A stretch of 64,000 nucleotides of DNA, taken from positions 310,001-374,000 of the forward strand of contig NZ_CP145732.1 in NCBI RefSeq assembly GCF_036884845.1, in the 5' to 3' direction. Below the pieces are notes generated by a model. The model did not search any database and was not told where the DNA came from. It was given only the letters and a program-made list of their open reading frames with translations. The DNA comes from Pseudomonas sp. MAG733B. Lineage in GTDB: Bacteria; Pseudomonadota; Gammaproteobacteria; Pseudomonadales; Pseudomonadaceae. Made by a program: the position numbers and the translations under genes. Positions 26,289 through 36,829 of this stretch are shown piece by piece; position 1 is the stretch's first letter, and the number at the start of each line of letters is the position of its first letter.

Positions 26289-26325
26289 GATCAGGGCAGA
26301 CTCCTTTCTTCTGCACGAAAAAAGC

Positions 26326-26354
26326 AAAACCCCGCCAGAAAAAGGCGGGGTTTT
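26326..26354. terminator. Bidirectional Rho-independent terminator between DUF1289 gene and rnk
   Basis: Stem AAAACCCCGCC-AGAAAAA-GGCGGGGTTTT; on the minus strand a T-rich tract follows. It separates the DUF1289 gene from rnk. Confidence 0.85.
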
Positions 26355-26414
26355 CACAAGCCTCGATGGGTTGAGGCGTATCCGGACACTATCACAGCTC
26401 AAAAAATATACAAG

Positions 26415-26639
26415 TCATGGCCCGGAGCCCTGTTTTCGCTGTACAGCTTGCGCGCAAATCACCCGCCGACGCTCGTCATCCGCCGAGCGCCATTCGCGGA
26501 TGTCTTCGACATGGCGGAAACATCCGAGGCAGACTTTCTGCTCATCCAGCCGACAGACCCCACTGCACGGCGATGGCACCGTCGGGCTGACATTGCTGTA
26601 GAGCGGCTTGGGCGGACGGACGGGAGCGGGCTGGGTCAC
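26415..26639 (-). CDS. DUF1289 domain protein
   Basis: A 74-residue protein with the DUF1289 cysteine pattern SPCSGVCRLDEQKVCLGCFR, a likely metal site, then an IREW motif. I use the GTG at 26639, four bases after the cyaY stop, with GAAGG upstream; an ATG-less upstream extension would overlap cyaY. Function unknown; short cysteine-cluster proteins of this type are common in proteobacteria. Confidence 0.8.
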   Translation of the reverse strand: MTQPAPVRPPKPLYSNVSPTVPSPCSGVCRLDEQKVCLGCFRHVEDIREWRSADDERRRVICAQAVQRKQGSGP

Positions 26640-35301: not shown

Positions 35302-35562
35302 ATGCTCGCGCCCAAAGACTTCCTCGACGCCCTCACCGGCACCGCCTCCCGCCTCTTCAGCGGCGACACCCCGCTGCCGAAAGCCGAAATCGAAAGTCAG
35401 TTCAAAATGTTGCTGCAAAGCGGCTTCAGCAAACTGGATCTGGTAAGCCGGGAAGAATTCGATAGCCAGATGGTTGTGTTGGCGCGCACACGGGCACGTC
35501 TGGAAGCGCTTGAGTCGAAAGTGGCTGAACTGGAAGCAAAGCTCACCCCTCCAGCCGAGTAA
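35302..35562 (+). CDS. ubiK: Ubiquinone biosynthesis accessory factor UbiK (BMFP family)
   Basis: An 86-residue protein: an amphipathic N-terminal helix (KDFLDALTGTASRLF) and a C-terminal coiled coil (SREEFDSQMVVLARTRARLEALE), the layout of YqiC/UbiK, which helps the aerobic ubiquinone complex with UbiJ. The ATG at 35302 matches family length. It is followed by the variable spot ending at yifB. Confidence 0.9.
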   Translation: MLAPKDFLDALTGTASRLFSGDTPLPKAEIESQFKMLLQSGFSKLDLVSREEFDSQMVVLARTRARLEALESKVAELEAKLTPPAE

Positions 35563-35575
35563 CCCCGCAATCCCT

Positions 35576-35600
35576 GTAGGAGCGAGCCTGCTCGCGATTG
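35576..35600. repeat. Single REP element
   Basis: One unpaired REP, GTAGGAGCGAGCCTGCTCGC. A fragment of another repeat class (GCGGCTGCGATCTTTTGATC) follows at about 35643. Confidence 0.75.
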
Positions 35601-35774
35601 AAGGCCGGAACGACCTTGCGCTTCACCTGTGAAGGAGTTGCCGCGGCTGCGATCTTTTGATCCCACAGCCCGCAAATAACCCGGCAACGTCCTACAAAGT
35701 TCTCATCCGCCGTCCGATTGCGCCGCAAAGCCACGGTTCCTAAGCTCACCTTCTGCTGAATGTTCAGCACTGGG

Positions 35775-35964
35775 TTTGGCGACTCGGAACCAAGCAATGC
35801 AGCTCACCTCGTTCGATATCAGGTATTTCTTCCCGATTCGAATTATGGCGGCTGTGTGTGGGAGACCTTAGGGTCTGCCGGTATTCGCTTGGCCGGTTCG
35901 CCAACCCGCACGCAGCTGCCACCCTTATTGTTTGGCGACGATATGCGGCAGTCATCTACCAAGC
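35775..35964 (+). promoter_or_regulatory. Candidate structured RNA leader with cloverleaf core
   Basis: The core at 35847-35920 (74 nt) closes with a 12-pair stem, GGCGGCTGTGTG with CACGCAGCTGCC (two G-U pairs). Inside are AGACC-TTAG-GGTCT and GGTT-CGCC-AACC hairpins, plus pairable CCGG boxes. It is flanked by two modules, TTTGGCGAC..CCAAGC at 35775-35795 and again at 35931-35964. The second ends where a ribosome site would be, 13 bases before ATG 35977 and 20 before ATG 35984. From memory similar blocks precede small genes in other P. fluorescens genomes, where the second module ends CCAAGGAG. A riboswitch-like or thermosensor-like leader is inference. Confidence 0.4.
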
Positions 35965-35983
35965 GAAATTCGGGTAATGCTCG

Positions 35984-36185
35984 ATGGACGAAAACTATCT
36001 GATTCCTCACTTCACCCGCCACAAACTTCACCTCAACGCCCTACTCCAGTTTGCTGCACTGGAATAACCAGCCGTGGATTCGGTTACAGGATGTGCCGCA
36101 GATGCTGCCTGATCAGCAGAAGCCGAGACGTGCGATCAATGCGCCTTGGTGGAAAAGAGCAGCAAAGATGCTTCACGCATTCTGA
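35984..36185 (+). pseudogene. Broken small BRO-N-like gene
   Basis: ATG 35984 reads MDENYLIPHFTRHKLHLNAL.. and stops at TAA 36065. In the next frame from 36060 the reading continues WNNQPWIRLQDVPQML, then DQQKPRRAINAPWWKRAAKM to TGA 36183. Joined, the two halves resemble a shortened BRO-N/phage antirepressor-type protein (pattern F-x-RH..ALL..QPW..DV). One frameshift and an internal deletion would explain it. No good ribosome site. The family call is tentative. Confidence 0.35.
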
Positions 36186-36187
36186 AT

Positions 36188-36216
36188 AAAAAACCCCACG
36201 CTTTTGGCGTGGGGTT
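36188..36216. terminator. Bidirectional terminator at end of higA
   Basis: Stem AACCCCACGC-TTTT-GCGTGGGGTT with an A-run on the left, giving a T-run on the minus strand after higA. Confidence 0.85.
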
Positions 36217-36236
36217 CGATAGATCCCAGAAAACAA

Positions 36237-36542
36237 TCAGGCACAGTGAGCAAGCCGCTCGACCTGAACCCGAATCGCGTCCCCTCGCTCAATCTCGGCT
36301 TTACGCAAATCGTAGGTCGATTGCAGGTTCAGCCAAAATTCCGGGGTCGTGTCCAAACAGATAGATAGCCGTAGAGCCATATCAGCACTGACACCCCGAC
36401 GCTGGAGCACAATGTCGTTCACCGTAGGTGTCGACACGTTCAACGCTCTGGCAAGAGCGGCAGCCGTAAGGCTCAGAGGCTCCAGGTATTCCTCTTTGAG
36501 GATTTCGCCAGGATGCACCGGGCGCATACCATTCTTGGTCAT
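36237..36542 (-). CDS. higA: HigA family antitoxin
   Basis: A 101-residue XRE-type helix-turn-helix protein of the HigA family: RPVHPGEILKEEYLEPLSLT at the start, AAALARALNVSTPTVNDIV as the helix-turn-helix, and FWLNLQSTYDLRKAE near the end. It would bind HigB and repress its own operon. It begins 8 bases after the higB stop with GAGGTGAG upstream, the usual toxin-first order. Complete and intact. Confidence 0.92.
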   Translation of the reverse strand: MTKNGMRPVHPGEILKEEYLEPLSLTAAALARALNVSTPTVNDIVLQRRGVSADMALRLSICLDTTPEFWLNLQSTYDLRKAEIERGDAIRVQVERLAHCA

Positions 36543-36550
36543 TACTCACC

Positions 36551-36829
36551 TCAGTGATAATCGACGATTTCAACATTCTCTGGTCCGTTAAGACCCCAAA
36601 GAAAGCAAATTCGCCATTGAGCGTTGATGCGGATGCTGTGCTGACCTTTTCGATTTCCCTCCAACGCCTCCAGACGATTGCCCGGCGGAGATCGAAGGTC
36701 CTTCAGCACGACAGCATCATCAAGCATCGTCAGCTTCCGTTCCGCGACACTCAGAACGGCTGACCACAAACGGGTCTTACCGTTGCAAAACAGGTACTCG
36801 GTCTCAGAACACTTAAAGCTAACGATCTT
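36551..36829 (-). CDS. higB: HigB/RelE-family toxin with no normal start codon
   Basis: In frame from 36829 to 36551 the sequence reads KIVSFKCSETEYLF, then NGKTRLWSAVLSVAERKLTM, and ends with QHSIRINAQWRICFLW..VEIVDYH, a full HigB fold with RIxxxWRICF and the VDYH end. HigB normally begins M-I-x-S-F; here the codon where Met is expected is AAG (36827-36829), preceded by ATT and an in-frame TAA. Possible starts are the ATT at 36832 or an internal TTG at 36769, which would lose the first 20 residues. No clear ribosome site is present. Either a silenced toxin or a rare-start toxin. Confidence 0.7.
   Translation of the reverse strand, partial: KIVSFKCSETEYLFCNGKTRLWSAVLSVAERKLTMLDDAVVLKDLRSPPGNRLEALEGNRKGQHSIRINAQWRICFLWGLNGPENVEIVDYH

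Follow-up and report, generated by a model that had tools for sequence, protein, structure and literature searches.

The DNA analysed here, a window of 64,000 nucleotides from the chromosome of Pseudomonas sp. MAG733B, very probably contains a solitary chromosomal C4 switch that stands ahead of a decayed, phage-antirepressor-like Bro-N gene. Judged by its Rfam match and conserved fold, the RNA is a C4 antisense RNA, and the window copy adds one more member to a family that is already described. For the genus as a whole, we lean on balance towards a wider reading, in which a battery of phage-type antisense switches, largely orthogonal to one another, occurs on Pseudomonas chromosomes throughout the genus, each switch silencing one small neighbour gene and having a pairing code that is renewed quickly under selection, sRNA-Xcc1 being a cis switch of the same kind.

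The core of the element matches the Rfam C4 model (RF01695) over its full length and well above the cut-off (Table 1), which disposes of the undescribed family assumed in the original prediction and equally of a new riboswitch-like family. The 190-nt stretch that includes the core folds at -74.6 kcal/mol (z -3.46), only 1 of 200 shuffles being equally good. An alignment of 21 paralogs from the same genome (L022 was left out) served for the covariation and T-arm tests. The long stem comprises 16 pairs, with 97.0% of cells paired and double-sided change in 5 of the 16 pairs, and it contains the predicted 12-pair closing stem, which thereby gains covariation support. For the whole C4 structure, 97.8% of cells are paired and double-sided change occurs in 11 of 26 pairs; double-change cells number 40 against 12.6 in shuffles, none of 500 shuffles being as high, and one of five covariation measures (further pair types) is not extreme (45 of 500 shuffles). 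The two internal hairpins that had been proposed fare differently. The first shows double changes in all five of its pairs, while the second, the T-arm-like GGTT-CGCC-AACC, finds no support: its fourth pair fails in 15 of the 21 paralogs, compensatory change is seen in no pair, and all 500 shuffles reach the observed values. The second hairpin of the conserved fold is GCCGG..CCGGT, with CGCCAA single-stranded, and the T-arm-like bases are in fact the b′ pairing loop. A tRNA or tRNA-like element was rejected, as the T-arm-like hairpin is unconserved and ARAGORN detects no tRNA in the window. The idea of a cis-acting leader or small RNA thus stands in so far as the element is a structured regulatory RNA; an antisense RNA whose targets are the flanking sites is a better description of it than a tRNA-like cis leader.

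Table 1. Features of the C4 locus and two further features of the window (positions in the window)
Feature	Position	Strand	Basis or remark
Pseudomonas rnk leader (RF01772)	26318-26424	-	77.9 bits
5′ leader hairpin TGCTGA-ATGT-TCAGCA, ahead of b1	35754..35769	+	Sequence; -7.2 kcal/mol for a slightly longer piece
b1 target site TTTGGCGAC	35775..35783	+	Complementary to b′
a1 target site CCAAGC	35790..35795	+	Complementary to a′; changes with a′ in relatives
C4 antisense RNA core (Rfam RF01695)	35841..35926	+	81.3 bits, cut-off 45, model 1-87 of 87; covariation
a′ loop TATTCGCTTGG, variable loop	35882..35892	+	Loop/target matching tests
b′ loop TTCGCCAA	35897..35904	+	Loop/target matching tests
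b2 target site TTTGGCGAC	35931..35939	+	In the loop of a weak predicted hairpin, 35927-35942, -1.3 kcal/mol
a2 target site CCAAGCGAA	35959..35967	+	9-nt perfect match to a′, upstream of the start codon; duplex -13.2 kcal/mol
5′ relic of Bro-N gene, 27 codons then stop	35984..36067	+	Residues 1-22 of the G021 protein at 82%
3′ relic of Bro-N gene, other frame	36048..36185	+	Residues 129-170 match at 71%; end 36185 read from the sequence
HigBA-type toxin-antitoxin pair (HTH_3 + HigB-like)	36237-36769	-	Between relic and comM

The flanks repeat the module TTTGGCGAC..CCAAGC, as originally noted, and its two copies correspond to the b1 and a1 sites upstream and the b2 and a2 sites downstream of the core. 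The names a1b1 and a2b2 follow Rfam in part and otherwise what we take to be the usual convention. The RF01695 arrangement, in which the a′ and b′ loops are complementary to both upstream and downstream sites, is found here in the loop/target matching tests given below, and complementarity is perfect between TTCGCTTGG in a′ and CCAAGCGAA in a2, and between TCGCCAA in b′ and TTGGCGA in b2. Among the 22 copies of this genome, the window's own site ranks first for a2, second for b1, and fifth for both a1 and b2, the b2 rank being low because several copies share its b type. The a1/b1 stretch of the window, though complementary to the C4, falls short of the c4-a1b1 family (RF03163), with 14.5 bits against a cut-off of 46.7 that is passed by 8 of the 20 own-genome loci scanned. 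Simple cofolding of the C4 with the downstream leader gains only 3.5 kcal/mol, and with the upstream site nothing, kissing loops lying outside the model. A hairpin similar to that ahead of b1 (GTCGCTG..CAGCGA type) is seen by eye in most other own-genome copies. A search of 35560-36240 found no sigma-70 consensus promoter.

The disrupted gene that had been predicted downstream proves to be a relic of a Bro-N gene, with about 317 bp deleted internally. The junction lies near 36047/36048: query positions 1-288 and 289-356 are 317 bp apart in the related genome G021, and a DNA search of the region in 57 genomes finds the match resuming after an extra 317-322 bp in four of them (G021, G019, G005 and G011). 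At this site G021 and G019 have intact genes, which reach 44.3 and 47.3 bits against the Pfam Bro-N model (PF02498; cut-off 25.6); the window gene, a relic only, lacks an intact domain of this family. The best PHROG match of the G021 protein is 'anti-repressor Ant'. The window C4 is located between ubiK and comM, and a prophage remnant around it was rejected, the neighbours being ubiK/BMFP, the HigBA-type pair and ComM.

The best 30 of 121 ubiK places in 119 genomes were surveyed over 1.5 kb each, one being shortened by a contig end. A C4 stands behind ubiK in 21 of them; comM falls inside the fetched sequence in only 3 of these 21, so that 'behind ubiK' is what was seen for most. The C4 is followed in 16 of these loci by an intact Bro-N frame that starts with ATG, encodes 170-175 aa and is covered over its full length by a tblastn match, and the gene is broken or missing in the other five, the window included (L098, L100, L107, L108 and L115), the C4 of L108 having lost b′. 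The nine places without a C4 hold no full Bro-N gene: L123 keeps the gene tail, L117 stops at a contig end, and in L101 a remnant of b1 and a short tail can be made out by eye, without a tblastn match.

The genome of this strain contains 22 C4 matches, 21 of them above the cut-off, and this set is unusual in both number and self-matching. A structured regulatory RNA recurring ahead of small genes had been foreseen, and 19 of the 22 matches are indeed followed by a small gene: DUF6124 in 11 cases, DUF3077 in two (one behind a 34-codon ORF), Bro-N in one and unassigned proteins of 89-98 aa in five. The three without an intact gene are the window, L016 and L021. The original prediction had named as grounds for its refutation a stem without covariation or copies at random places without a conserved downstream gene; the stem covaries and the kinds of downstream gene recur. 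Seen from the genes, 11 of 15 DUF6124 places and 2 of 3 DUF3077 places in this genome lie directly behind a C4, the third DUF3077 place being one of the DUF6124 places. This grouping of genes leaves out two duplicates, places that occur under a second locus number (L064, L075, L083, L098, L099 and L114) and weak matches on the antisense strand, and the scan with a custom C4 model leaves out L070, which is the same place as L033.

The five unassigned proteins were grouped from three seeds and may represent more than one family; for none of them does Pfam give a match above the cut-off, and the group could not be joined to DUF6124 or DUF3077. No PDB fold match at E 0.001 was obtained for one of them (model pLDDT 90.7) or for one DUF6124 protein (pLDDT 77.2). 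Profile comparison of nine DUF6124 sequences with DUF3077 gives a probability of 2.9 and E 0.016, and one place in the genome is above the cut-off for both Pfam models. A gene matching both models, at L138 (5026240), lies just upstream of a PrrF RNA match. L059 has three C4 matches in about 1.1 kb, and L071 has three in 0.5 kb. Frames flanking the 22 loci within 1.5 kb include one reverse transcriptase, one Fic, one HicB and one RHS; among the Pfam families listed for 44 flanking open frames (19 for one half, 25 of 33 for the other), none is an integrase or virion family.

An indication of function comes from the way in which loops and targets vary together. Behind ubiK, 20 C4 loci could be parsed (L108 was left out, its loop being unparsed), and they combine constant b sites with 10 versions of a′. 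The match of a′ to a2 averages 22.4 for self pairs and 13.0 for cross pairs, and that to a1 16.2 and 11.7; the own site is best for 7 of the 10 versions in each case, with p 2e-5, which is the floor of 50,000 permutations that ignore relatedness. At one fixed place in the chromosome, loop and target thus change in step, an outcome that is difficult to account for without pairing, and the pairing of a′ with its targets seems to be under selection.

Similar matching is observed across the 22 loci of this genome, where the own target is top or tied in 17 for b′-b1, 15 for a′-a2, 9 for a′-a1 and 7 for b′-b2; the test is a restricted ungapped one, and p is 5e-5 for each site pair, the floor of a permutation that ignores relatedness. 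The b′-b2 pair alone selects its own target in only 7 of 22, several copies sharing a b type. With both downstream sites combined, the own target is best in 15 of 20 loci, and with all four sites in 17 of 20, L016 and L021 being left out as no downstream target remains there. Letter-shuffled loops average 26.0 against 37.2 observed in the 20 own-genome loci with a downstream target. A cruder duplex-energy test is much weaker, with the own target best in 2 to 9 of 22 loci, counted by row or column, and p from 5e-5 to 0.018.

In the mechanism that we propose, a single transcript would run from upstream of b1 through the C4 into the gene. It would be cut by RNase P and other nucleases to release the C4, probably as an RNA of about 77 nt, as in the C4 family. 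The b′ and a′ loops would then pair with b2 and a2 ahead of the start codon. This would prevent translation, perhaps with early termination as well, whereby the gene behind, an antirepressor gene in the Bro-N case, would be off by default. The second module had been thought able to hide the ribosome site, and it may block that site through the a2 duplex. In 46 of 54 loci this duplex overlaps a Shine-Dalgarno-like motif under a loose definition, at a median of 7 nt from the start codon; this is a raw count without a shuffled control, and the 54 loci were selected from 100 records as having a classified gene, a start codon ATG or GTG and a duplex. The window would present a switch that has outlived its gene.

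This scheme has precedents among phage RNAs. The C4 RNA of P1 and P7 is described, in the excerpts available, as pairing with mRNA leader sites through two loops, a′ and b′ (PMC5320573, PMC12197685); according to these excerpts b′ partly occludes the ribosome site and a′ provides specificity, whereas here it is the a2 duplex that usually covers the Shine-Dalgarno-like motif. The Pseudomonas element resembles the P1/P7 system in its core fold, its a′ and b′ loops, its a and b sites on both sides and the antirepressor-type gene behind it. It differs in being chromosomal and solitary, with about 20 copies in this genome that mostly have their own loop sequences, and in the genes behind, which are mostly DUF6124, DUF3077 or unassigned small proteins. 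The CI RNA of P4 is likewise a phage/satellite regulatory RNA in the leader of an early or antirepressor operon and belongs to another fold family. Gifsy-1 IsrK has such a leader position too, again with another fold, and its short form is reported in the excerpted text to activate translation in trans (PMC4825925). The closest precedent is Group 1 of A. baumannii, with 21 similar C4-motif RNAs and a variable a′ loop in one genome, where reads are consistent with RNase P processing (excerpts of Weiss et al. 2016, PMC5320573). As here, one genome has many C4-motif RNAs; their targets are left open in those excerpts (phage or host transcripts), whereas most of the Pseudomonas copies adjoin a matched target, the flanks of the A. 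baumannii RNAs lying outside this comparison.

It might also be supposed that C4 and gene form an antidote-like pair, in which the silenced protein would be harmful and the C4 could be lost only after the gene, following the logic of type I toxin-antitoxin systems. The many and dispersed C4 copies would suit this idea, as would the ubiK survey, where an intact Bro-N gene without a C4 occurs in none of the 30 stretches and a C4 without an intact gene in five. Such dependence is nevertheless unlikely, given that 4 of the 15 DUF6124 places in this genome have no C4. At one of them, L136 (1804974), the DUF6124 leader has an Rfam c4-a1b1 stretch that runs directly into the ribosome site of an intact gene, which from this layout is apparently an unsilenced copy. 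Many Bro-N genes elsewhere also stand without a C4: of 15 Bro-N loci scanned with the custom model, 12 give no match at E 0.001.

The C4 module extends beyond chromosomes. Phage vB_Pae_CF3a carries b1, a1, a C4 (69.7 bits, custom model), b2 and a2 ahead of an 88-aa ORF, and in 25 IMG/VR stretches found by the C4 pattern, some of which may include host flanks, the next frame is often a 52-aa ORF or a DUF3077-like ORF and sometimes another ORF; one stretch with an ORF of this other kind, L310, matches DUF3077 at 121.9 bits. A conserved 52-aa ORF (MHALNPSK... type) lies directly behind the C4 in many loci, among them several between L028 and L063, and phage phiAH14b, an element of 16.8 kb that has integrase, AlpA and primase, contains a 69%-identical stretch.

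In P1 and P7, C4 acts in superinfection immunity and is the textbook phage immunity RNA. The chromosomal set could be viewed as trans-acting immunity RNAs that silence incoming phages or satellites with matching a and b sites and are kept after the death of their gene, as the intact C4 and dead gene of the window and the presence of the module in Pseudomonas phages and viral contigs would allow. This possibility appears quite improbable: at least 120 viral stretches match the b2-gap-a2 pattern of the window, but the 80 that were scanned contain no C4, so that the matches look like chance, and the a′ loop of the window is identical in three relatives with an intact gene, so that retention of the C4 may mean only that the gene was lost recently. 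That the strong fold ahead of a gene marks an undescribed family of folded cis-leaders or a tRNA-like element is scarcely credible in view of the full-length Rfam C4 match, the unconserved T-arm hairpin, the lack of a tRNA and the joint change of loop and target. The preferred reading remains that of a C4 switch acting on its neighbour gene.

Bro-N genes are also preceded by other leaders. Twelve Bro-N loci of relatives have no C4 match; sRNA-Xcc1 (RF02221) lies in front of four of them, and one (L085) has a sub-threshold C4. Another leader is visible by eye in L089, L090, L091 and L096, in the form CCTAAGAAAC(A/G)CCCAACGTA .. GTTGGG .. CTCTACGT(T/C)GG .. and a site ending TAGAGG; three of the four have an ATG shortly after this site. 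The leader has no Rfam match at E 0.01.

According to the available portions of two reports, sRNA-Xcc1 entered the literature as a Xanthomonas sRNA that is highly expressed and has predicted targets in trans (PMC2996969), and a 2025 paper links it to virulence through predicted trans targets (PMC12189769). Within the genus it occurs in 32 of 149 genomes, at 36 places, and is not found in the genome studied here. A Bro-N gene lies behind it, on the same strand and within 900 nt, in all 30 places fetched of the 36 (L313-L342). Target-like sites surround the RNA, as exemplified by the loop CTCTGTGTG..TTTCTTAG and the leader CTAAGAAAG..CACACAGAGG, and this likeness to C4 is accompanied by a difference, sRNA-Xcc1 being a separate Rfam family without a clan in the release used. 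It does not belong to the C4 family, as the four Bro-N loci with an RF02221 match gave no C4 match at E 0.01. Among these 30 of 36 places, 14 loop types match their own leaders at 21.1 against 14.1 for others, the own leader being best for 10 of 14 (p 2e-5). Across the class, sRNA-Xcc1 is found in 25 of 369 genomes, 11 above the cut-off, with a Bro-N gene in none of 30 loci (custom profile). Matching is weaker there: the own site is best in 3 of 30 for a′ (p 2e-5), in 4 of 30 for b′ (p 4e-4) and in 5 of 30 for the two combined. A loop that matches its own pre-gene site better than that of another locus is thus seen in the genus and less evident class-wide, and by analogy sRNA-Xcc1 may act in cis, as an antisense switch of the C4 type, rather than in trans.

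The c4 motif was described by Weinberg et al. in 2010 from Proteobacteria and phages, and c4-a1b1 from Gammaproteobacteria and phages, as given in excerpts of that paper (PMC2864571). In the open-licence literature, in so far as its texts were accessible, neither the gene set behind C4 in Pseudomonas nor sRNA-Xcc1 as a leader antisense RNA was found described, and no paper on DUF6124 was found there. A C4 is present in 275 of 298 Pseudomonas genomes; 145 of these reach the limit of 14 candidates scored per genome, so that copy numbers are lower bounds. Among 244 genomes of the order, where up to 17 candidates were scored in each, it occurs in 36 genomes spanning 19 of 112 genera, and at least 10 copies are reached only in the window's genus and one sister genus. 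C4 thereby appears as a standing chromosomal feature of the genus, and in the genome studied here its copies, most of which match their own target best, offer natural, mostly non-cross-reacting antisense pairs for study. The DUF6124 and DUF3077 families would gain a first regulatory context, and a testable function is suggested for sRNA-Xcc1.
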